NCBI GenBank assembly: GCA_019359125.1
Contig: JAHHHY010000001.1
Location: 186,001-250,000, forward strand
DNA length: 64,000 nt
DNA from: Pleurocapsa minor GSE-CHR-MK 17-07R
GTDB taxonomy: Bacteria > Chloroflexota > Anaerolineae > Aggregatilineales > Phototrophicaceae
Direction of reading: 5' to 3'
Shown one piece after another: positions 49,157 to 60,544 of this stretch (positions within the stretch are counted from its first letter, which is position 1; the number at the start of each line of letters is the position of its first letter). Below the pieces are notes generated by a model that saw only the letters and a program-made list of their open reading frames with translations, was not told the DNA's origin and ran no database searches. Position numbers and translations under genes: made by a program.

Positions 49157-49627
49157 ATGTCACACAGAATTTTCACGCACAAGTCAGTCATTCCGACCAC
49201 CATGGACAGGATGATGGCTTTTCACTCAGATAAAAACGCCTTCTCCCGGCTGACGCCGCCTCCCATTTTCATGCAGCTGCATCGCGATGACCGCACCAGC
49301 ATCACCGCCGGGGAGCTGGAATTCACACTGTGGTTTGGGCCGATTCCTGCCCGCTGGACCGCCGTGCACGAGCCTGGTGCGATTGAGACCTCGTTTGCCG
49401 ACCGGATGCTCAAAGGCCCGATGAAGTATTGGCGGCATGAGCATCAGTTTCGCGAGGTGCCCGGCGGCATCGAGCTGACCGACCGCATCGAGTACGACTA
49501 CATGCCGTCCGGCTTCTGGGCGGTGTTTGGGCGGCTGTTTTTCAGCCCGCTTCCGCTGAAGGGGTTGTTCTTTTACCGGCATCTGCGTACGCGGCTGGGC
49601 ACCCGTGTCCCGGCGACTGGCGGGTGA
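49157..49627 (+). CDS. SRPBCC-family ligand-binding protein
   Basis: 156 residues. The N-terminus (ATG 49157; FTHKSVIPTTMDRMMAFHSD) and the central EHQFREVPGGIELTDRIEYDY match the START/SRPBCC cavity fold often annotated as cyclase/dehydrase-like. The C-terminal FFYRHLRTRLG is typical. There is no catalytic signature. It starts a run of seven co-directional genes and its stop overlaps the next GTG by 4 bases. In light- or stress-induced gene sets of other bacteria SRPBCC proteins sit beside photolyase and carotenoid-type oxidoreductases; a lipid- or carotenoid-binding role is inferred. Confidence 0.8.
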   Translation: MSHRIFTHKSVIPTTMDRMMAFHSDKNAFSRLTPPPIFMQLHRDDRTSITAGELEFTLWFGPIPARWTAVHEPGAIETSFADRMLKGPMKYWRHEHQFREVPGGIELTDRIEYDYMPSGFWAVFGRLFFSPLPLKGLFFYRHLRTRLGTRVPATGG

Positions 49628-51171
49628 CCGTGGCTGCGCGCAGGACTGAATCCCCAAAGATTGTCATCATTGGCGCGGGCGTGGGCGGGCTGACGGCTGG
49701 CGCGCTGCTGGCGCAGGCGGGCTGCGATGTCACCGTGCTCGAAGCCCAGCTGTACGCGGGCGGCTGTGCTGGCACGTTCTATCACCAGGGCTATCGGTTT
49801 GAGGCTGGCGCGACTGTCGCGGGCGGTTTTCAGCCCAACGGCCCGCATTACGTCGTTGGCAAGCGGCTGGATATCGACTGGCCAGTACACGTGCATGACC
49901 CTGCCTGGGTGGTGCATATGCCCACGCGTGAAATCGCGCTGACGCAGGACAATGCCAACGTGCTGGAAAATTTCCCGCGCAGCGCATTCTTCTGGAATGA
50001 GCAGTCGGCGCTGGCTGATCTGGGCTGGTCGCTGTCCGCGCAGGGGCTGCCGTGGCCGCCCACCAACGGGCATGAATGGGCGCAGCTCATCAAAGTGGCA
50101 CTGAAGAATTTCCCGCGTGATGTGCGCATGGCGCCATTTGCGTTGGGCACCGCCTACCAATGGCTGCGCGTGCGCGGTCTGGCCGATGATCCGGAGCTGG
50201 TGCGTTTTCTGGATGCCCAGTTGTTGATTTCGGCGCAGACGACCACGCGTGGCGCGAATGCCATTTACAGCGCCACCGCGCTTGATCTGGCGCGGCAGGG
50301 TGTTTACCATGTTGAGGGCGGCATTGGCGGCATCGCCGACACGCTTGTGAAAAAGCTGGAATCGCTGGGCGGACGCGTGCTTTTCCGCCAGAAGGTGCAG
50401 CGCATCAACGTCAGCGAGGGCCGCGCCGTCAGCGTGACCACCAAAAAAGGCGAGACGTATGCGGCGGACTGGGTGCTGGGCAACCTGACGCCGTGGTCGC
50501 TGGACAGTCTGCTGGAAGATGCCAGCCCGAAGCAATTGCGCGAGGAAGTCGCCAGGCGTAAGCCGGGCATGGGTGCATTTGTGCTGCATCTGGGCATCGA
50601 TGGCGCAGCTTTTCCCGCTGAAATGCCCGATCATCATCAGTTTATCGACAGCATCGACGGCCCGCTGGGCGAGGGACACAGCATCTTCATGTCTGTTTCC
50701 CCGGCGTGGGATAGTTCGCGTGCGCCGCAGGGCAATCGTGCCGTCACCGTGACCACGCACACCCGGGTGGGTGACTGGTACGCGGCTGCCGAGCAGGGGC
50801 AGGATGCGTATGAGGCGCGTAAGGCCGAGTATCAGGCGATGGTGCTGGACGGCATCTCGCGCTATATCCCCGGCTTCAAAGAGGCCGTGCGCTTCAGCAT
50901 GGCGGGATCGCCTACATCGTATGCCTTTTGGACCGGTCGCGCGCAGGGCATGGTCGGCGGGTTCCCGCAGACCAGCCTGTTTAAGGCGCGTGGTCCGCTG
51001 ACCGGCATCCCCAACGTGCGGCTGGTAGGCGATTCGATTTTCCCTGGTCAATCAACGGCGGGTGTGTCGCTCGGTGCGATGCGCGTGGCCGATGACCTGA
51101 TTCGGCGCATGCCCGCTGCGTCTGCCATGCGCCGCGAACGCCAGTCTCCACAGGGAGCTGTGGGTTCATGA
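49624..51171 (+). CDS. CrtI-like FAD-dependent desaturase/isomerase family protein
   Basis: 515 residues. The dinucleotide-binding motif is KIVIIGAGVGGLTAGALLAQ with VLEAQLYAGGCAGT. The C-terminal FAD motif is LVGDSIFPGQSTAGVSLGAM. These fit phytoene desaturase, carotenoid isomerase or related NAD(P)/FAD oxidoreductases. No phytoene synthase is in the window, so a carotenoid substrate is not certain. The GTG start overlaps the SRPBCC stop, and its stop overlaps the photolyase start, both by 4 bases. This places it firmly in the same transcription and translation unit. Confidence 0.85.
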   Translation: MTVAARRTESPKIVIIGAGVGGLTAGALLAQAGCDVTVLEAQLYAGGCAGTFYHQGYRFEAGATVAGGFQPNGPHYVVGKRLDIDWPVHVHDPAWVVHMPTREIALTQDNANVLENFPRSAFFWNEQSALADLGWSLSAQGLPWPPTNGHEWAQLIKVALKNFPRDVRMAPFALGTAYQWLRVRGLADDPELVRFLDAQLLISAQTTTRGANAIYSATALDLARQGVYHVEGGIGGIADTLVKKLESLGGRVLFRQKVQRINVSEGRAVSVTTKKGETYAADWVLGNLTPWSLDSLLEDASPKQLREEVARRKPGMGAFVLHLGIDGAAFPAEMPDHHQFIDSIDGPLGEGHSIFMSVSPAWDSSRAPQGNRAVTVTTHTRVGDWYAAAEQGQDAYEARKAEYQAMVLDGISRYIPGFKEAVRFSMAGSPTSYAFWTGRAQGMVGGFPQTSLFKARGPLTGIPNVRLVGDSIFPGQSTAGVSLGAMRVADDLIRRMPAASAMRRERQSPQGAVGS

Positions 51172-52598
51172 CCTGTGTCATTCACTGGTTTCGGCGTGAT
51201 CTGAGGCTGGACGACAATACCGCGCTGAGCCAGGCGTCCGCGACCGGCCTGCCAGTCGTCCCCGTGTTCATCCTCGATCCTGCCCTGCTGAGCGGGGAGC
51301 GCTTCAGCGCACGGCGCATGGCTTTCCTGCTCGACGGCCTGCGCGCGCTGCATGAGGATCTTCTCGCGCTTGGCTCGCGCCTGCTGGTGTTGCAGGGCCA
51401 TCCGGAAGATGTGCTGGGCGCCCTGATTCATGAGCTGGGCGCGTCGGCCGTGTATGCCAACGAAGACTATTCCCCTTATGCCCGTAAACGTGACAGCGCG
51501 CTTGCCCAACGACTGGGGGTACCGCTGCATCTGTCGCCCGATCAGTTGATTCATGCGCCCGGCCAGGTGACCAAAAGCGATGGCAAGCCGTATACCGTGT
51601 ACACGCCCTTCCGCCGCGTGTGGGAGTCGCTGCCCAAGCTGCCCCCTGTGCAGACGGTGTTGCGCGGCAGGCTGCATCCGCTGAGTGATCGGCAGGGTGG
51701 CGACGTGCCGGATATGCGCGCGCTTGGCCTGAACGAGAGCGTCGCGCTGCCGATTCGCGCTGGTGCCGTTGAAGCGGCACGCAAAATGGACTCGTTCCTG
51801 CGCGGCGCAATCTACAATTATGCCGATGGCCGTGATGCGCTGGTCGCGGACCCGTTTGACGGGGGCGGCATGTTTGGCGGGGCCTTCGGCACGTCGTATC
51901 TGTCGCCCTATATCCGCTTCGGCATGATTTCCCCGCGTGCTCTGGTGCAGGGCGCTCAGGCCGCCCGCGACGCTGCGCCCAATGCCGGCGCACGCAAAGG
52001 CGTCGATGTGTGGGTGAGCGAGCTGGCCTGGCGCGACTTTTACGCGCACATCCTGTATTTCTTCCCGCATGTGACCTCGCGCAGCTTCAAGCCCGTGTAT
52101 GACAAGGTGGCCTGGCGCGCGGACAAGTCTGAACTGGAGCGCTGGCAGACCGGGCAGACCGGCTTTCCGGTGGTGGATGCCGCCATGCGCCAGATGAATA
52201 CGCTGGGCTGGATGCATAACCGGGCGCGCATGATCGTCGCCAGCTTCCTCACCAAGGACCTGCTGGCGTACTGGCGCGAAGGTGACGTGTATTTCATGCA
52301 GCAGTTGCTGGATGGCGACCTGGCCGCGAACAACGGCGGCTGGCAGTGGGCCGCCAGCACAGGTACCGACGCGCAGCCGTATTTCCGTATTTTTAATCCG
52401 GTATCGCAGTCCGAGCGTTTTGACCCCAACGGCGACTATATCCGTCACTGGGTGCCTGAACTGCGCGACGTGCCCGCAAAACATATCCACGCGCCGTGGC
52501 TGATGACATCCCCGCCGCCTGCGTATGCGCGGCCGATGGTCGACCATGCTTTCGCGCGCGAGCGCACACTTCAGGCCTTCAAGGAGGTGACCGCATGA
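51168..52598 (+). CDS. phr: Deoxyribodipyrimidine photolyase
   Basis: 476 residues, class I CPD photolyase length. N-terminal WFRRDLRLDDNTAL (antenna domain), then the FAD-binding region with VWVSELAWRDFYAHIL, GFPVVDAAMRQMNTLGWMHNRARMI and DGDLAANNGGWQWAASTGTD. These include the Asn that contacts FAD N5 and the Trp electron chain. It repairs UV-induced pyrimidine dimers with blue light. It overlaps its neighbours on both sides (ATGA each). Its presence in the unit supports a light or UV response. A 6-4 or cryptochrome function is less likely because the DNA-repair residues are retained. Confidence 0.95.
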   Translation: MTCVIHWFRRDLRLDDNTALSQASATGLPVVPVFILDPALLSGERFSARRMAFLLDGLRALHEDLLALGSRLLVLQGHPEDVLGALIHELGASAVYANEDYSPYARKRDSALAQRLGVPLHLSPDQLIHAPGQVTKSDGKPYTVYTPFRRVWESLPKLPPVQTVLRGRLHPLSDRQGGDVPDMRALGLNESVALPIRAGAVEAARKMDSFLRGAIYNYADGRDALVADPFDGGGMFGGAFGTSYLSPYIRFGMISPRALVQGAQAARDAAPNAGARKGVDVWVSELAWRDFYAHILYFFPHVTSRSFKPVYDKVAWRADKSELERWQTGQTGFPVVDAAMRQMNTLGWMHNRARMIVASFLTKDLLAYWREGDVYFMQQLLDGDLAANNGGWQWAASTGTDAQPYFRIFNPVSQSERFDPNGDYIRHWVPELRDVPAKHIHAPWLMTSPPPAYARPMVDHAFARERTLQAFKEVTA

Positions 52599-53617
52599 AG
52601 ATTAGGTTTCTGAAATGGACAGTGCGTATTGTACTGGTCCTGCTGTTCATTATCTTCGTGCTGCCGCTGCTGATTCCGCTGCCGCCGGACGGCGTGGCCG
52701 CCAGCACCTTTGCCGACCCCGACGGCCGCTTCATCACGGTAAACGGGCTGGACACGTATGTGCGTGAGCGCGGTGAGCCGGACGAGCCGGTTGTGCTGCT
52801 GCTGCATGGCTGGGGCGGCAGCACGTTCTCGTGGCGTGAACAGTTTGATGCGCTGGACGAGGCTGGCTACCGCGTGATTGCCTTCGACCGCCCGCCCTAC
52901 GGCCTGTCGCAGAAGACGGGTGAGCTGCCGCTTTCCCAGCGCCAGCAGGCCGAATTCAGCATTGCTGTAATGGATAGCCTGGACCTCGACAGCGCCACGC
53001 TTGTGGGGCACAGTATGGGAGGGGGTGTGATCGGCTACATGGCCGCGCTGGCCCCGGAACGCGTCGAAAGGCTGGTCTTTGTGGACGGCGTGCCGCGTGT
53101 GGAGGAGCCTGCACCTGCCGCTGCAACAGGCTCGAACCGCCTGAGCAGCACGGTGGGTATTCCGCCATTTCTTGTCTCCGCGATAGATTTTCCGCCGGTG
53201 AACCGCTGGATTCGTATCGGCCTGCGTACATTTCTGCAGCCGGATACCTTCACCAACATGCAGCGTACCGCCTATTACGATCCCGCCACCGTGACCGACG
53301 AAGTCGCCGCCGGCTATCAGCAGCAGCTTCAGGTCGTCGGCTGGGACGAAGCCATGATAGATATCGTGGCCGGACGCGGTTTTGCAGACGCGCCGCTGAC
53401 CGAAGCCGAAGTTCAGGCCATCACCGCGCCCACATTGATTGTGTGGGGCGATAATGACACCTGGGTGCCGATTGCGTCGGGCGAGCGGTTTGCCGACGTC
53501 ATGGCCGGGGAGACCTTTGTCACGTTTTCAGAGACGGGCCACATGCCGATGGAAGAGCATCCGGCCCGGTTCAATGAAGAGCTATTGCGCTTTCTTGCAG
53601 CAGGAACGGAGTCGTAA
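52595..53617 (+). CDS. Membrane-anchored alpha/beta hydrolase
   Basis: 340 residues. An N-terminal hydrophobic segment (WTVRIVLVLLFIIFVLPLLI) anchors the protein, leaving the hydrolase outside. The fold is typical: oxyanion LLLHGWGGS, nucleophile GHSMGG, acid near WGDNDTW and His in ETGHMPMEEHP. The ATG lies after a full AAGGAGGTGA ribosome site and overlaps the photolyase stop. Family members include epoxide hydrolases, esterases and lipases; the exact reaction is unknown. Membrane location with photolyase and TspO neighbours suggests a role on lipids or lipid-derived oxidation products, which is inference. Confidence 0.87.
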   Translation: MKIRFLKWTVRIVLVLLFIIFVLPLLIPLPPDGVAASTFADPDGRFITVNGLDTYVRERGEPDEPVVLLLHGWGGSTFSWREQFDALDEAGYRVIAFDRPPYGLSQKTGELPLSQRQQAEFSIAVMDSLDLDSATLVGHSMGGGVIGYMAALAPERVERLVFVDGVPRVEEPAPAAATGSNRLSSTVGIPPFLVSAIDFPPVNRWIRIGLRTFLQPDTFTNMQRTAYYDPATVTDEVAAGYQQQLQVVGWDEAMIDIVAGRGFADAPLTEAEVQAITAPTLIVWGDNDTWVPIASGERFADVMAGETFVTFSETGHMPMEEHPARFNEELLRFLAAGTES

Positions 53618-53620
53618 ATC

Positions 53621-54406
53621 ATGAACAGAGACAGTGTGCGTCAGATCGCGAATATTTCTGGGGTGGTGGGCACGCTCATCATCAACGCTTTGTCGCAGAT
53701 TCTGCCATTCAACGGGAAGACCAGCGCGATCATCGCGAATCAGTTCAATCCGAACAACTACTTTCTGCCGGCTAACTTTGTGTTCAGCATCTGGAGCGTG
53801 ATTTACGTTGGGCTGATCGCGTTCGCCGTGTGGCAGGCGCTGCCCGCCCAGAAGGAAAACCCGCGTCTGCGCAGCGTCGGCTACTGGTTCGTGGCATCGT
53901 GCGTGGCCAACTGCGTGTGGCTGTTCCTGTTCCACTGGGACCAGTTTGCGCTCAGCACTGTCGCGATGGTCGTGCTGATTACTTCTCTTGTGGTGATTTA
54001 CCGCAAGCTGCGCTCCGGCAACCCGGCCGTCTCGATGGCCGAGAAGATTTGCCTGCGTGCGCCGTTCAGCGTTTACCTGGGCTGGATCACGGTCGCGCTG
54101 GTGGCCAATGTCACGTTCGTGCTGCTGGATGCTGGCTGGGACGGCTTCGGCATCGCGTACAGCACATGGGGCGTCATCATGGTCGTGGTGGCCGGGCTGA
54201 TCGCGGGTGCGTTTGCCTTTATCAACCGTGACGTGATCTACGCAGCGGTGCTGCTGTGGTCGTTCTTCGGCATCAACCAGCGCTTCCCGAATGTCAGTGA
54301 ACTTGCCCTGATTGCCGTGGTCGCTGGTGTGCTGATAGTTATCGGCGCGGTGCTGAGCATGTTCCTCGGCCGTTCTGGCAATCAGATGAGCTCGGCACGC
54401 GCCTAG
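53621..54406 (+). CDS. TspO/MBR-related tryptophan-rich membrane protein
   Basis: 261 residues with about seven predicted membrane helices. Segments such as LPANFVFSIWSVIYVGLIAFAVW and GYWFVASCVANCVWLFLFHW match the longer tryptophan-rich sensory (TspO-like) proteins of bacteria. Classical TspO has about 160 residues and five helices; this longer form is a relative. TspO proteins bind porphyrins and cholesterol-like molecules and act in oxygen- and light-dependent regulation. It begins 3 bp after the hydrolase stop and precedes the selenoprotein gene. Function here is inferred from family and location. Confidence 0.82.
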   Translation: MNRDSVRQIANISGVVGTLIINALSQILPFNGKTSAIIANQFNPNNYFLPANFVFSIWSVIYVGLIAFAVWQALPAQKENPRLRSVGYWFVASCVANCVWLFLFHWDQFALSTVAMVVLITSLVVIYRKLRSGNPAVSMAEKICLRAPFSVYLGWITVALVANVTFVLLDAGWDGFGIAYSTWGVIMVVVAGLIAGAFAFINRDVIYAAVLLWSFFGINQRFPNVSELALIAVVAGVLIVIGAVLSMFLGRSGNQMSSARA

Positions 54407-54424
54407 CAGAATAAGGATTCATGA

Positions 54425-54985
54425 ATGGCAGCAAGACTACAGCCTGGCGATCAGGCGCCCGATGTGTCGCTGGTGGGCATCACCGGCCAGCCAGCGACAC
54501 TGTCTGAATACTGGAAGAATGGCCCGGTGCTGATCAGCTTTCTGCGCCACTTTGGCTGACCGTTCTGCCGCGAGATGCTTTCCAGTCTGGAGAGCCACCA
54601 CGGAGAACTGGAACGGGCAGGGCTGACGGTGCTGGCAGTGGCACAGGGTGAGCCGAAACACAACGAACGCTACTGCGGGTCACTGGCGCCCAATATCACC
54701 TGCCTGAGCGACAGCACGACAGACTCGTATCACACCTGGGGATTGCAGCAGGGCAAGCTTGGTGAGCTGCTGAATGTGGGTGTGATTATGGGCGGCGTGC
54801 GTGCCGCGTCGAAGGGACATGTCGGCGGGCCAGTCATTGGCGACGCCCGCATGATGCCGGGCACGTTCATTGTCGATGGGGCGGGTATCGTGCGCTACGC
54901 ATTCTATGCTACGCATGCCGCTGATCATCCGCCCATCGCAGATTTGTTGCATGCTGCGTCGCTGCTCGGCAGCGCCAGCAACTAG
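54425..54985 (+). CDS. Peroxiredoxin-like selenoprotein (in-frame TGA = Sec45)
   Basis: The frame from ATG 54425 (AAGGA upstream) encodes 186 residues if TGA at 54557-54559 is read as selenocysteine. The active site is then LRHFGUPFCREM: Sec45 and Cys48 form a UxxC redox motif exactly where relatives have CxxC. Sequence on both sides of the TGA belongs to one AhpC/TSA thioredoxin-fold protein of the SelU/PRXL2-like type (VLISFLRHFG before; VIGDARMMPGTFIVDGAGIVRYAFYA after). A hairpin fitting a bacterial SECIS follows the TGA. Without Sec reading, the protein would end after 44 residues. Predicted role: thiol-dependent peroxide or disulfide reduction. The gene lies between the TspO-like and SDR genes of the stress operon. 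Confidence 0.85.
54557..54559 (+). other. Selenocysteine codon (UGA), Sec45
   Basis: TGA in frame between GGC and CCGTTCTGC. It replaces the first Cys of the redox motif. The reading frame stays open for 141 further codons with family-typical sequence, which argues against a decayed gene. Confidence 0.82.
54577..54595 (+). promoter_or_regulatory. Candidate bacterial SECIS hairpin
   Basis: GCUUUCC pairs with GGAGAGC (7 bp, one G-U) and closes a 5-base loop AGUCU; an A-U pair can extend the stem to 8. The loop G lies 26 bases after the TGA. Bacterial SECIS elements, as I recall, need a hairpin within about 16-37 bases of the UGA with a G in the first two loop positions, and this one fits. The E. 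coli fdhF loop GGUCU is nearly the same. Confidence 0.7.
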
Positions 54986-55000
54986 ACGAGGAGAAGTTTC

Positions 55001-55633
55001 GTGCCAGAAGCACTCATCTTTGGCGCTTCAGGGGGTATCGGTGCGGCTCTGGTGACGACGCTCAAAGCGCGCGGCTGGAAGGTGTATGCAGCCGCGCGCG
55101 ACGAGTCTCGAATTCCCGATGTGGCGGACACGACCTTCGCATTTGAGGCGGGGAAACCGTTCACCTTCAGCCATATCGCCATGATGATCGCGCAGGAATC
55201 AGACGGGCTGGACTTGGTGGTGTATGCTGCCGGGTCGATGCAGCCGCTGCTGGTCGATCAGTTTGACGGTGACGCGTGGGCGGAGGTATTCGCTGCTAAT
55301 CTGGGCGGGGCACAGCAGGCGGCGCGCGCCAGCATCCCGCTGCTGCGCGAAGGCGGACATTTTATGGCCATCGGCGCGTATACTGACAAGCTGGTGCTGC
55401 CCAAATTTGGCGCGTATGCCGCGGCCAAGTCTGCCCTGGCGACGATGCTGGGCGTGCTGGCGAAGGAAAATCGCCGCTTTAAGTTCACGGTTGTGCGCCC
55501 GGGAGCCGTCGATACCGGCTTCTGGAGCCGTGTGCCCTTCAGCCTACCGAAGAGTGCAATGCAGCCCGCGCAGGTGGCCGAGGCCATCGCAGCGCACGTC
55601 GAAGCAGGCGGTTCGGGCACGCTGGACCTGTAG
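55001..55633 (+). CDS. Short-chain dehydrogenase/reductase
   Basis: 210 residues, shorter than classical SDRs. The cofactor motif is IFGASGGIGAA, LDLVVYAAGSMQP stands in place of NNAG, and the catalytic YAAAK is present. The GTG start follows GGAGA. It is last in the seven-gene stress run, 15 bp after the selenoprotein gene. SDRs often occur beside photolyase and SRPBCC genes in light-responsive sets; the substrate is unknown. A hairpin with a weak T-rich tail follows. Confidence 0.85.
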   Translation: MPEALIFGASGGIGAALVTTLKARGWKVYAAARDESRIPDVADTTFAFEAGKPFTFSHIAMMIAQESDGLDLVVYAAGSMQPLLVDQFDGDAWAEVFAANLGGAQQAARASIPLLREGGHFMAIGAYTDKLVLPKFGAYAAAKSALATMLGVLAKENRRFKFTVVRPGAVDTGFWSRVPFSLPKSAMQPAQVAEAIAAHVEAGGSGTLDL

Positions 55634-55737: not shown

Positions 55738-56601
55738 GTGGATCAAGCGACATTTCTAACGGGTCAGAAGCTGATTGAGCTGGCGCTGCGCGAAGACCTG
55801 GGGCAGGCCGGTGATGTGACCAGCCTGGCCACGATTGGCCCGGCGGAAAAGCTACGCGCCCGGATTACTGCCAAACAGTCCGGCGTGGTTGCAGGGCTGG
55901 CCATGGTCGTGGGCACGTATGCGCAGGTGGATGCCAGCATCCGCTACTTTGGCGAGGCCACCGACGGCAGCTTCATTCAGCCGGGCACAGTGGTTTGCGA
56001 GCTGGAGGGGTCAGCGCGGTCGATCCTGTCCGGCGAGCGCACGGCGCTAAACTTCCTACAGCGGCTGAGCGGCGTTGCCACCCTGACGCGCCAGTTTGTC
56101 GACGCGGTAGCCGGCACCAATACGGCCATTCTGGACACGCGCAAGACCACGCCCGGCTGGCGCCTGCTGGAGAAATACGCGGTGCAGGCCGGCGGCGGCG
56201 TCAATCATCGGATTGGGCTGTACGACGCCGTGCTGATCAAGGACAACCATATTGCCGCGGCGGGCGGTGTGACAGCCGCCGTACAGGCGGTCAGGCGCTA
56301 TGCCCCGGCCACCGGGCTGGATGTGGTCGTCGAGGTGGAGAACTTTGATCAGCTTGATGAAGTGCTGGCGCTGCCGGGCATCACGCGCATCCTGCTCGAC
56401 AATATGTCGCTGAAAGAGATGCAGGCAGCCGTAGAGCGTGTGGCTGGGCGCCTGCCGCTGGAGGCCAGCGGGAATATGTCGCTTGAGCGCGTGCGCGCAG
56501 TCGCGGGGACAGGCGTCAATTTCATCAGCGTTGGCGCATTGACGCATTCCGCCCCGGCGTTCGACTTTTCCATGCGTGTGACAAAAGTGAAGCACGACTA
56601 G
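55738..56601 (+). CDS. nadC: Nicotinate-nucleotide pyrophosphorylase (quinolinate phosphoribosyltransferase)
   Basis: 287 residues, normal length. Motifs: GDVTS, SGERTALNFLQRLSGVATLT, ILDTRKTTPGWRLLEKYAV and GGGVNHRIGLYDAVLIKDNH, with the Arg and Lys residues that bind quinolinate and PRPP. It turns quinolinate into nicotinate mononucleotide in de novo NAD synthesis. The start is a GTG with no ribosome site, directly behind a palindrome, so translation may be leaderless or the operator occupies the usual place. It is first in a nadC-nadA-nadB-desulfurase operon. Confidence 0.95.
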   Translation: MDQATFLTGQKLIELALREDLGQAGDVTSLATIGPAEKLRARITAKQSGVVAGLAMVVGTYAQVDASIRYFGEATDGSFIQPGTVVCELEGSARSILSGERTALNFLQRLSGVATLTRQFVDAVAGTNTAILDTRKTTPGWRLLEKYAVQAGGGVNHRIGLYDAVLIKDNHIAAAGGVTAAVQAVRRYAPATGLDVVVEVENFDQLDEVLALPGITRILLDNMSLKEMQAAVERVAGRLPLEASGNMSLERVRAVAGTGVNFISVGALTHSAPAFDFSMRVTKVKHD

Positions 56602-56635
56602 AACCTTCGGTGGGCATAGCGATGTGGAGGAAACC

Positions 56636-57757
56636 ATGACATCCGCTCCCGTACTGATAGATGAAGTGCCCGTTCAGGGCGAAGATACCCTGATTGATGC
56701 GGAGGCCGCGGCCGTTGAGCGCATTCGCCGCGCCCGCGAAATTCTGGGCGATCAGGTGGTCATTCTGGGCCATCATTACCAGCGCGACGCGGTCGTGCAG
56801 TTTGCCGACTATGCGGGCGACAGCTACCAGCTCAGCCGCGATGGCGCGCGCGTGAATGCCAAATACATCATATTTGCCGGCGTGCATTTCATGGCCGAAA
56901 GCGCGGTGATTCTGGGTCGGCCGGACCAGGTCGTCATCCTGCCGAATATGAATGCCGGTTGCAGCATGGCCGACATGGCCAATCTGGAGCAGGTGCTGAC
57001 GGCCTGGGACGAGCTGGGCATGGTGCTGGGCTATGACCCGGTCGAGCACATCATGCCGATCACCTACATGAACAGCGCGGCCAACCTGAAGGGGTTTGTG
57101 GGCGAGCGTGGCGGCACCGTGTGCACCAGCTCGAACGCGCGCGGCGCGCTGGAATGGGCGTTCAACCAGCGCGAGAAAGTGTTCTTCTTCCCTGACCAGC
57201 ACCTGGGCCGCAACACCGGCAAGGCGATGGGCATTCCGCTGGAAGAAATGGTGCTGTGGAATCCGTTCAAGCCGTTTGGCGGCCTGACGGACGAGCAGAT
57301 CCGTAACGCGAAAATCATCCTGTGGCAGGGACATTGCAGCGTGCATCAGCAGTTCCGCCCGGAGCACATCGATATGTGGCGCCGGATGCACCCGGACATC
57401 AACATTATTGTGCATCCCGAATGCGCGATGGAAGTGGTCGACAAGGCCGATTTCACCGGCAGCACCGCGCACATCCTGAATGTGATCAACGCTGCGCCCG
57501 CCGGCTCGAAGTGGGCTGTTGGCACCGAGATTCATCTGGTCAACCGCGTGAAGCAGGCCAATCCCGACAAGATGGTCACGCTGCTGTCACCGTTCTCGTG
57601 CCTGTGCAGCACCATGTATCGCATCAGCCCGCTCGACCTGGCCAACGTGCTGGAAAATCTGGTCGAAGGGCGCGTCATCAACCAGATCTTTGTGCCCGAA
57701 GATGTGCAGCGCGGCGCCCGCCTGGCGCTGGACAGGATGCTGTCGATTCCCAAATGA
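56636..57757 (+). CDS. nadA: Quinolinate synthase
   Basis: 373 residues. It carries ILGHHYQRDAVVQFADYAGDS at the N-terminus and three iron-sulfur cysteines at about Cys109 (NAGCSMAD), Cys163 (TVCTSSNA) and Cys322 or Cys324 (SCLCSTMYR). HPECAMEVV and AVGTEIHLVNR are also family-typical. It condenses iminoaspartate with dihydroxyacetone phosphate to quinolinate and needs a 4Fe-4S cluster. ATG 56636 with GGAGG upstream is preferred to an in-frame GTG four codons earlier. Its stop overlaps nadB by 4 bases. The desulfurase at the end of the operon may supply sulfur for its cluster. Confidence 0.96.
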   Translation: MTSAPVLIDEVPVQGEDTLIDAEAAAVERIRRAREILGDQVVILGHHYQRDAVVQFADYAGDSYQLSRDGARVNAKYIIFAGVHFMAESAVILGRPDQVVILPNMNAGCSMADMANLEQVLTAWDELGMVLGYDPVEHIMPITYMNSAANLKGFVGERGGTVCTSSNARGALEWAFNQREKVFFFPDQHLGRNTGKAMGIPLEEMVLWNPFKPFGGLTDEQIRNAKIILWQGHCSVHQQFRPEHIDMWRRMHPDINIIVHPECAMEVVDKADFTGSTAHILNVINAAPAGSKWAVGTEIHLVNRVKQANPDKMVTLLSPFSCLCSTMYRISPLDLANVLENLVEGRVINQIFVPEDVQRGARLALDRMLSIPK

Positions 57758-59367
57758 ACACTGACCTGCGCACCCATACCCTGATTATCGGCTGCGGCAT
57801 CGCTGGCGCGACGACTGCGCTGCGCCTGAGCGATGATCCAAATCATCACATCACGATTATCACCCGCGCCCGCGAGGCCATCGACAGCAATACCGGCTGG
57901 TCACAGGGCGGGATCGTCACGCGTGGGCTGGATGACTCGCCAGCGCTGCTGGTGGAAGACATTCTGCGCGCAGGTGCCGGGCTCAGCTCTCCGCGTGCAG
58001 CCCAGATTCTGGCTGACGAAGGCCCTGGCCTGGTCAACGACGTACTGATCGACCGCTGCGGCGTGAAATTTGATGCAGAGCCGGACGGCGACCTGAAGTT
58101 TGGCCTGGAGGCCGCGCACAGCACGCGACGCATCGTGCATGTGGGCGACAAAACCGGCGAGGCCATCATCAATCACCTGCTGGATACGCTGGCGTTGCGT
58201 CCGAATGTGCATCTGCTGACCAATCACACAGCAGTGGACATCATCACTTTCCCGCACCACAGCCTCGACCCGCTGGATGCGTATGAGCCGATGACCTGCC
58301 ACGGCGCATATGTGCTGGATCGCAAGACGGGTGAGATCATCCGCGTGCTGTCGGCCCACACCGTGCTGGCTACTGGCGGGCTGGGGCAGATTTACCGGAA
58401 TACCAGCAATCCGCGTGGCGCACGAGGCGATGGCCTGGCGATGGCCTGGCGGGCGGGCGCGCGCGTGGTGAATGCCGAATACGTGCAGTTTCACCCGACG
58501 ACGCTCAGCGTTCGTGGTGCGCCTAATTTGCTGATTTCCGAAGCTGTGCGCGGCGAAGGTGCGGCACTGCTGACGCCCAACGGTGAGCCGTTCATGGAGA
58601 AATACGACCCGGTGTGGAAGGAACTCGCGCCCCGCGATGTGGTCGCGCGTGCCATTCACATGGAGATGCTGGAACAGGGTTATGAGAATGTGCTGCTGGA
58701 TATCGCCAGCAAGCGCCCGGCCAGCTATATCCGCGAACGCTTTCCGCAGCTCATCGAGACGACAGCCCGTTATGGCATCGACCCGACGACCCAGCCGATT
58801 CCTGTCGTGCCTGCCGCGCACTACTTCTGCGGGGGGGTACTCGTGGATGACTGGGGGCGCACCAACTTTGCCAATCTGTATGCCGTGGGGGAAGTGAGCT
58901 GTACCGGCCTGCACGGGGCGAATCGCCTGGCCAGCACCAGCCTGCTGGAAGGCCTGGTGTGGGGTGACCGCGCCGCGCGCGATATTGCAGCGAACCGCCG
59001 CGACGCCGTCACTTTTGACCGTGTGCCCGCGTGGGAATATCGGGGCAATCTCGACCCTGACCCGGCGCTGCTGGAAGGCGACTTCTCGGCGCTGAAGACG
59101 CTGATGTGGCATTATGTCGGGCTGGTGCGCACGCAGGAGCGCCTGGCACGTGCTGACCGCGAGCTGCGCCATCAGATTCATGAAATCGAGTCATTTTATC
59201 GCAGTGCGCGCCTGAATGACCAGCTCATTGGCCTGCGCAACGCCATCCAGTCCGCCCGCATTGTCGCGTTTGCGGCCTACCGCAACCCGACCAGCCGCGG
59301 CACCCACTATCGCGCCGACAGCCATGAGTCGAACGCTGGCGATGTGCTGCTAAGAAGACAGGGGTAG
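57754..59367 (+). CDS. nadB: L-aspartate oxidase
   Basis: 537 residues. FAD motif THTLIIGCGIAGATTALRLS, substrate-side NTGWSQGGIV, HVGDKTGEAI, EYVQFHPTTL, EAVRGEGA and VVPAAHYFCGGV are all present, with ANRLASTSLLEGLVWG near the C-terminal FAD site. It oxidises aspartate to iminoaspartate for NadA. It begins at ATG 57754 overlapping the nadA stop. A longer open frame reaches back to 57322 within nadA in another frame and is not real. The helical C-terminal domain is complete. Confidence 0.95.
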   Translation: MNTDLRTHTLIIGCGIAGATTALRLSDDPNHHITIITRAREAIDSNTGWSQGGIVTRGLDDSPALLVEDILRAGAGLSSPRAAQILADEGPGLVNDVLIDRCGVKFDAEPDGDLKFGLEAAHSTRRIVHVGDKTGEAIINHLLDTLALRPNVHLLTNHTAVDIITFPHHSLDPLDAYEPMTCHGAYVLDRKTGEIIRVLSAHTVLATGGLGQIYRNTSNPRGARGDGLAMAWRAGARVVNAEYVQFHPTTLSVRGAPNLLISEAVRGEGAALLTPNGEPFMEKYDPVWKELAPRDVVARAIHMEMLEQGYENVLLDIASKRPASYIRERFPQLIETTARYGIDPTTQPIPVVPAAHYFCGGVLVDDWGRTNFANLYAVGEVSCTGLHGANRLASTSLLEGLVWGDRAARDIAANRRDAVTFDRVPAWEYRGNLDPDPALLEGDFSALKTLMWHYVGLVRTQERLARADRELRHQIHEIESFYRSARLNDQLIGLRNAIQSARIVAFAAYRNPTSRGTHYRADSHESNAGDVLLRRQG

Positions 59368-59374
59368 AGCCATC

Positions 59375-60544
59375 ATGAGCGACGAGATCGTCTATCTGGA
59401 CCACAGCGCCACGACGCCCACCGACCCCCGTGTGGTGGAGGTGATGCTGCCGTATTTCACCACCCAGTTTGGCAATCCGGCCAGCCTGCACAGCATCGGC
59501 AAGGCCGCTGGCCGGGCGGAGCAGGAGGCCCGTGCCAAGATTGCCGCGGTGCTGGGCTGCGACCCCAGCGAACTGATCTTCACCAGCGGCGGTACCGAGA
59601 GCGATAATCTGGCGCTGATCGGCGTGGCCCATGCCATGAAGGCGCGCAACCGGGGCAACCATATCATCACGACCAGTGTGGAACATCACGCGGTGTATGA
59701 TGTGGCGAAAATGCTGGAGACGGATGGCTTCGAGGTCACCTATCTGCCGGTGGATGCGTATGGGCGGGTGATGGCCGCGCAGGTGGCCGACGCCTTGCGC
59801 CCTGAGACCGTGCTGGTCAGCGTGATGTATGCCAATAACGAAGTGGGCACGGTGAATCCGATTGCAGAAATTGGCGCGCTGCTGCGTTCAAAACGCGTGC
59901 TGTTTCATGTGGACGCGGTGCAGGCGCCTGGCCTGCTGCCGCTGAATGTGAAGGCGCTTAGCGTCGACCTGATGAGCCTGTCGTCACATAAGTTCTATGG
60001 GCCTAAGGGGATAGGCCTGCTGTATACCCGCCGTGCGACGCCGTTGGCTCCGCAGATGATTGGTGGCACGCAGCAGGCGCATCGTCGCGCCGGCACCGAG
60101 CCGGTCGTGCTGATCGTGGGCATGGCCGAGGCGCTGGCCCTGGCCGAGGCCGAACGCGAAGAGACGGTGGCGCGTTTGCTGCCGCTGCGCGATGCGCTGA
60201 TCGAAAAGGTGCAGGCGGCTGTGCCTGAAGCCCTATTGACCGGCCATCCCACCGAGCGCCTGCCCGGGCACACCAGCTTCGCGCTGATGGGCCTGAATGG
60301 TGACTCGCTGCTGCTGGACCTGAATGAGATGGGCATCGCGGCTAGCGGTGGCAGCGCCTGCACGACCGGCCAGCAGGAGCCCAGCCATGTTTTTCTGGCG
60401 ATGGGGGTCGATCCCGACCGGCTGATGGGGCAGGTGCGCTTTGTGCTGGGTAAACACAGCACCATGGCCCATGTGGACAGGCTGGTCTATCAACTGGCCG
60501 CCCTGGCCGAGCGCCACCGCAAGATGGTCCCCGATGTGCGCTGA
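59375..60544 (+). CDS. Cysteine desulfurase (NifS/IscS type)
   Basis: 389 residues. It starts YLDHSATTPTDPRV and contains TSGGTESDNLA, SVEHHAV, the PLP lysine Lys206 in SSHKFYGPKG, RAGTEP and the catalytic Cys329 in GGSACTTG. It releases sulfur from cysteine for iron-sulfur clusters. The place behind nadC-nadA-nadB suggests service to the NadA cluster, as with nadB-linked NifS genes in Bacillus relatives. It could also handle selenocysteine-derived selenium, which would be of interest beside a selenoprotein, but nothing in the sequence shows it. A terminator follows. Confidence 0.94.
   Translation: MSDEIVYLDHSATTPTDPRVVEVMLPYFTTQFGNPASLHSIGKAAGRAEQEARAKIAAVLGCDPSELIFTSGGTESDNLALIGVAHAMKARNRGNHIITTSVEHHAVYDVAKMLETDGFEVTYLPVDAYGRVMAAQVADALRPETVLVSVMYANNEVGTVNPIAEIGALLRSKRVLFHVDAVQAPGLLPLNVKALSVDLMSLSSHKFYGPKGIGLLYTRRATPLAPQMIGGTQQAHRRAGTEPVVLIVGMAEALALAEAEREETVARLLPLRDALIEKVQAAVPEALLTGHPTERLPGHTSFALMGLNGDSLLLDLNEMGIAASGGSACTTGQQEPSHVFLAMGVDPDRLMGQVRFVLGKHSTMAHVDRLVYQLAALAERHRKMVPDVR

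Follow-up and report, generated by a model that had tools for sequence, protein, structure and literature searches.

The locus and its reading frame

Within the window, by which we mean the whole 64-kb stretch of DNA analysed here, the reading frame that runs from the ATG at 54425 to the TAG at 54985 contains a single internal stop: a TGA at codon 45, after which 141 codons follow before the TAG (Table 1). Translation thus bears out the earlier note, which had described the TGA as the sole break in a frame otherwise open to its end. A mechanical list of open reading frames under the standard bacterial code contains only 54575-54985, corresponding to 136 amino acids from an ATG. Since the listed frame begins at the ATG at 54575, ordinary gene calling would lose 50 residues, rather than the 44 given earlier.

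Table 1. Coordinates of the selenoprotein candidate, its predicted signals and the neighbouring genes in the window.
Position	Strand	Feature	Basis
49157..49627	+	Polyketide_cyc-type protein, first gene of probable operon	
49624..51171	+	FAD-dependent amine-oxidase/CrtI-like oxidoreductase	Pfam Amino_oxidase
51168..52598	+	DNA photolyase	Pfam
52592..53617	+	Alpha/beta hydrolase	Pfam; start codon chosen by hand, ORF list start 52496
53621..54406	+	TspO/MBR-like membrane protein	Pfam
54413..54417	+	Likely ribosome-binding site (AAGGA) with 7 nt spacing to ATG 54425	Inference from sequence
54425..54985	+	Very probable selenoprotein gene, 186 residues with Sec45, SelL-related / AhpC-TSA redox protein	Translation, Pfam, NCBIfam, alignment
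54557..54559	+	In-frame TGA; very probable selenocysteine codon (Sec45 in U-P-F-C)	Translation, family and phylum comparison
54566..54568	+	TGC, Cys48, second residue of UxxC; invariant in 25-row alignment A1	
54577..54595	+	Predicted bacterial SECIS-type hairpin; stem 54577-54583 / 54589-54595, loop AGUCU 54584-54588	
55001..55633	+	Short-chain dehydrogenase (SDR)	Pfam

The gene lies in a run of seven genes (49157-55633) that form a probable operon and resemble a light-stress operon. We take the product of 49624..51171 to be CrtI-like. Further downstream, the region 55738-60544 presumably contains nadC-, nadA- and nadB-like genes of NAD synthesis, followed by a cysteine-desulfurase-like gene.

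The host genome (4.85 Mb in 23 contigs, 98% complete) encodes the components of selenocysteine decoding. SelA (537 bits), SelB (382 bits) and SelD (379 bits) all score above their curated cut-offs, and a single tRNA-Sec exceeds the Rfam cut-off with 66.4 bits and is called by ARAGORN as tRNA-SeC with the anticodon TCA. The earlier note had made its reading depend on selA, selB, selD and tRNA-Sec being present in the genome, and all four were found. The SelD gene (locus L017) has one internal TGA itself, at about 1531 in the context ASCAG-U-AAK, and is thus a second Sec gene of the genome. No formate dehydrogenase alpha subunit was found above the curated cut-off in the host genome; small redox proteins like the Sec45 protein may therefore help to keep the Sec system.

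The TGA is followed by the hairpin GCUUUCC-AGUCU-GGAGAGC of 7 bp, whose first base lies 17 nt after the TGA at 54557, as had been described. For the 54-nt stretch, the folding energy is -21.1 kcal/mol compared to a mean of -12.9 kcal/mol for shuffled sequences (z -3.2; 1/200 shuffles as low). A stem-loop just after the TGA, with a small loop holding a G, is present in the window and in its relatives; such a structure immediately 3' of the TGA is given as a mark of bacterial selenoproteins in the available part of PMC1088965. The hairpin of the window scores 7.5. Under the same scoring, hairpins of at least 6.5 in the SECIS position follow 34 of the 2260 TGA trinucleotides (1.5%) on both strands of the window, and the hairpin alone is therefore weak evidence. 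The case for the putative recoding is carried by conservation across genomes.

TGA and cysteine forms among relatives

Relatives of the gene were searched for in 98 genomes of the family (E <= 1e-10) and in 400 genomes of the phylum (E <= 1e-30). The family search returned 26 matches in 22 genomes, 16 with TGA and 10 without; the phylum search returned 24 matches, 14 of them with TGA (the gene of the window is counted in both cases). In the relatives' loci the TGA occupies the same position of the motif. All 19 readable loci without TGA (9 in the alignment, 10 recognised by pattern) encode cysteine opposite to it, which was the expectation behind the alignment check proposed earlier. In one further locus, L037 (G016:C382), the orthologue ends at the contig end at Cys48, and the Sec/Cys position lies beyond reading. 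Five of the family loci also appear under public names, all of them Anaerolineae MAGs. A second, distant TGA paralogue with the motif FLRHFG-U-IFC and a weak hairpin occurs at L041 (G013:C9:111977-112456), in a genome that also contains an orthologue.

The predicted hairpin is where synonymous codon choice in the gene is constrained most strongly. Among 13 TGA orthologues including the window, the identity of codons for the same amino acid at residues 51-56 is 0.86 compared to 0.40 expected (357 pairs). This excess is the largest in the gene: the median excess over 178 segments is 0.03. In an alignment of 13 relatives with the window left out (A3, 12 distinct rows), a 6-bp helix emerges from RNAalifold and direct counting, with base pairing in each of its 72 cells, and one of its pairs occurs as UA, AU and GU. 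The covariation score of A3 is matched by 3 of 500 shuffles; just one of the six pairs has changed on both sides, a number reached by 491 of 500 shuffles. Across all pattern-recognised loci, a hairpin scoring at least 5.5 was detected at 27 of the 29 TGA loci versus 2 of the 18 Cys loci. The corresponding means in synonymously recoded controls are 15% (TGA) and 13% (Cys), with maxima of 34% and 33%. The two TGA loci under the threshold are L041 and L072; among the 27 that reach it, three (L035, L036 and L091) have their best score in a shifted hairpin. Compared to the hairpins of the family relatives, that of the window has other letters and lies one base nearer to the TGA; the phylum-level hairpins occur in the same place with quite different letters.

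A covariance model (R1) was built from A3, that is, from relatives without the window. Its top match in the 64-kb window is 54557-54610 (E 9e-4, the next match having 0.11). The alignment leaves out 12 central bases, which are the hairpin itself; the match therefore shows homology of the flanking coding sequence and not the hairpin of the window, and it was dropped as support for the latter. The evidence from codons, hairpin counts and Sec machinery is independent of this match. Across 23 sources, R1 gave weak matches on three Cys loci (L028 with 18.4 bits, L023 with 13.7 and L025 with 13.1), and at E <= 1 it matched neither the distant TGA loci L073, L074, L078, L086 and L092 nor SelD.

The TGA form goes with the machinery. 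Among the family genomes with TGA, tRNA-Sec was found in 15 of 15 and SelA in 14 of 15; in the phylum, the numbers are 12 of 13 and 13 of 13. The two exceptions are G025, which has no SelA match, and G481, which has no tRNA-Sec match, and each has the other component. In the four genomes with close Cys orthologues (G003, G010, G012 and G015, drafts with completeness of 88, 76, 96 and 87%), neither tRNA-Sec nor SelA was found (0/4 for each). For tRNA-Sec, the difference between the family TGA genomes and these close Cys genomes has a Fisher p of 0.0003 with relatedness ignored, at a baseline of 70 of the 98 family genomes. A cysteine form does not imply absence of the machinery, because 9 of the 10 phylum genomes with Cys have tRNA-Sec as well as SelA; a general link between the Cys form and lost machinery was accordingly rejected. 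In the tenth phylum Cys genome, G325 (80% complete), neither component was found. The genomes carrying five distant family Cys paralogues (L038, L039, L042-L044) have tRNA-Sec.

In a tree of 41 proteins, the four close Cys rows are nested in a Sec group on starred branches. Starred branches require at least three Sec/Cys changes, and the nesting of G325 depends on unstarred forks. Because the root of the tree is its midpoint, we can only infer that the close Cys forms arose in the direction from Sec to Cys, which fits the missing machinery. A scan of viral contigs confirmed no relative.

For 17 orthologues of the family, we examined the flanking sequence, at most 1.5 kb on each side. A TspO-like protein is present in 11 of the 17, a similar hydrolase in 8 (some of these matches are only 26-36% identical) and an SDR in 6. 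The photolyase and the CrtI-like oxidase were each found in one; the photolyase lies farther off and would often fall outside the 1.5 kb. The TspO-like neighbour is kept at the four close Cys loci, and the close Cys and Sec forms are therefore one gene at one location. None of the window's neighbour genes was found next to the 23 phylum-level loci.

Interpretation and alternatives

We consider it very likely that the gene encodes a selenoprotein of Prx fold, in which the UGA at 54557 is recoded as selenocysteine through the hairpin and SelB. The recurrent TGA, the Cys homologues, the hairpins and the Sec machinery support what the earlier note had regarded as a probable selenocysteine. SelB on the hairpin 54577-54595 would bring Sec-tRNA to the UGA; Sec45 would be inserted and the ribosome would continue to 54985, as the conservation suggests. 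As a UxxC redox pair, Sec45 and Cys48 would then sit at the N terminus of the first long helix. Judging from fold and motif, the protein would most likely reduce peroxides or disulfides via a Sec-Cys selenenylsulfide, with thioredoxin or a small thiol restoring the reduced state.

The predicted structure (Sec as Cys, 15-row alignment) has a mean pLDDT of 89 and a Prx fold, with the best fold matches to Bcp4 (Z 21.1), human PGFS (20.2), Bcp1 (20.2) and AhpE (19.9). There is an appreciable chance, somewhat short of even, that the same selenoprotein acts mainly as a thiol-disulfide oxidoreductase or a prostamide-synthase-like reductase and not as a peroxidase: UxxC is a thioredoxin-type motif, and the second-ranked fold is that of human PGFS (PDB 9usa, the C44S/C47S mutant), whose CxxC aligns with UxxC. 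Against this, the majority of the nearest solved folds bear the names of peroxidases (Bcp, AhpE, Prx), although function does not follow from fold.

Readings without selenocysteine fare far worse. Very little probability attaches to a functional product of 136 amino acids from the ATG at 54575, with the TGA truly ending an upstream peptide. This is the protein given by the mechanical list, but it would be left without the first strands and the entire redox motif of a Prx fold that is predicted with confidence, and the residues before the TGA (FLRHFG) are conserved and can be aligned with Prx proteins. We find it equally hard to credit that the TGA stands for another amino acid, by a change of code such as TGA=Trp, or is subject to general read-through. 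The frame would indeed be open whichever residue the TGA gives, but the other readable loci have cysteine at position 45, a Sec system with a TGA-holding SelD is present in the genome, hairpins accompany TGA forms and are rare after Cys forms, and the four close Cys forms occur in genomes with no match to tRNA-Sec or SelA. A nonsense mutation or an error of sequencing or assembly in an ordinary Cys gene is the least credible of all. A one-base change in a Cys codon would give the same picture in one genome, and Cys forms do exist, but TGA recurs at this codon in many genomes throughout the phylum, the frame is open for 141 further codons, and the relatives show conservation of silent sites over the hairpin.

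For the selenoprotein reading, the genes around the locus suggest that its product is used during light or oxidative stress. A role of the operon in photo-oxidative stress is plausible because, according to the available text of PMC7074977, singlet oxygen in Rhodobacter elicits a response from photolyase genes, a crtIB-tspO operon and a peroxiredoxin. A literature search for a selenoprotein together with photolyase and TspO found nothing on the subject. As a tentative picture, to which we give somewhat less than even likelihood, a Chloroflexota photo-oxidative-stress operon with a CrtI-like oxidase, photolyase, TspO-like protein and SDR would include a Sec-dependent peroxidase or disulfide reductase; those species in the family that have lost Sec decoding would have kept the gene in place through a change from Sec to Cys.

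The gene offers a natural comparison: one gene with a TspO-like neighbour in a Sec or a Cys form, with Cys in four related genomes in which the machinery was not found. There is perhaps a second case of a Cys form in a genome without a found tRNA-Sec or SelA. Since ordinary ORF calling shortens the TGA form, annotation of Chloroflexota genomes that have it could overlook the redox enzyme or label it hypothetical.

Relation to known systems

The Sec45 protein is a further member of a kind already known, since Prx-like selenoproteins with UxxC had been published by 2005. In the available parts of the sources, they are among the families already known in the Sargasso Sea paper of that year (PMC1088965), recur in 2008 with pfam00578 (PMC2398784) and are included in reviews of 2022 (PMC9312934) and 2026 (PMC13188914). 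None of these four sources, as far as their available text extends, names a Chloroflexota clade of such proteins; the text of the 2026 review contains neither 'Chloroflexi' nor 'Chloroflexota', and that of the 2022 review does not contain 'Chloroflexi'. In its accessible portion, a 2006 survey assigns three selenoproteins, from three families, to Chloroflexi.

The best named family for the protein is the SelL-related one, with which it shares the profile NF040769 of NCBIfam ('SelL-related redox protein'): the match scores 136.9 bits at a curated cut-off of 120 and covers positions 2-172 of 173. SelL proper has a UxxU motif, which differs from the U-P-F-C of the Sec45 protein. Among the Pfam models, AhpC-TSA (PF00578) scores 61.9 bits (cut-off 26), Redoxin is above its cut-off, and AhpC-TSA_2 (PF13911) reaches 30.7 bits (cut-off 27), less than PF00578.

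We take AhpC-TSA_2 to be the marker model of PRXL2/SelU, and human prostamide/PGF synthase (PGFS; PDB 9us9, 9usa) presumably is a member of this group. The CxxC of PGFS aligns with UxxC (LRRFGC versus LRHFGU), and its fold matches with Z 20.2 over 157 residues; the identity with PGFS, however, is about 20%, and the PRXL2/SelU score lies below those of AhpC-TSA and NF040769. The SelU/PRXL2 likeness proposed in the earlier note is thus real, as the AhpC-TSA_2 match and human PGFS indicate, but weaker in sequence than that to the SelL-related family.

Bcp/PrxQ and AhpE resemble the protein in fold (Z 18.4-21.1 among the matches listed), and Cys48 falls on the Cys of their TxxC; in the alignment with the TPGC of ordinary Bcp-type proteins, Sec45 falls on the T and Cys48 on the C. 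They have T/SxxC, whereas in the Sec45 protein Sec occupies the place of T/S, and the sequence accordingly departs from the typical Prx active site PxxxT/SxxC by having Sec at the T position. The Prx-like thiol:disulfide oxidoreductase selenoproteins are defined, in the available text of PMC9312934, by PF00578 with UxxC or UxxU. The Sec45 protein combines the same PF00578 domain with UxxC, a likeness by domain and motif only.
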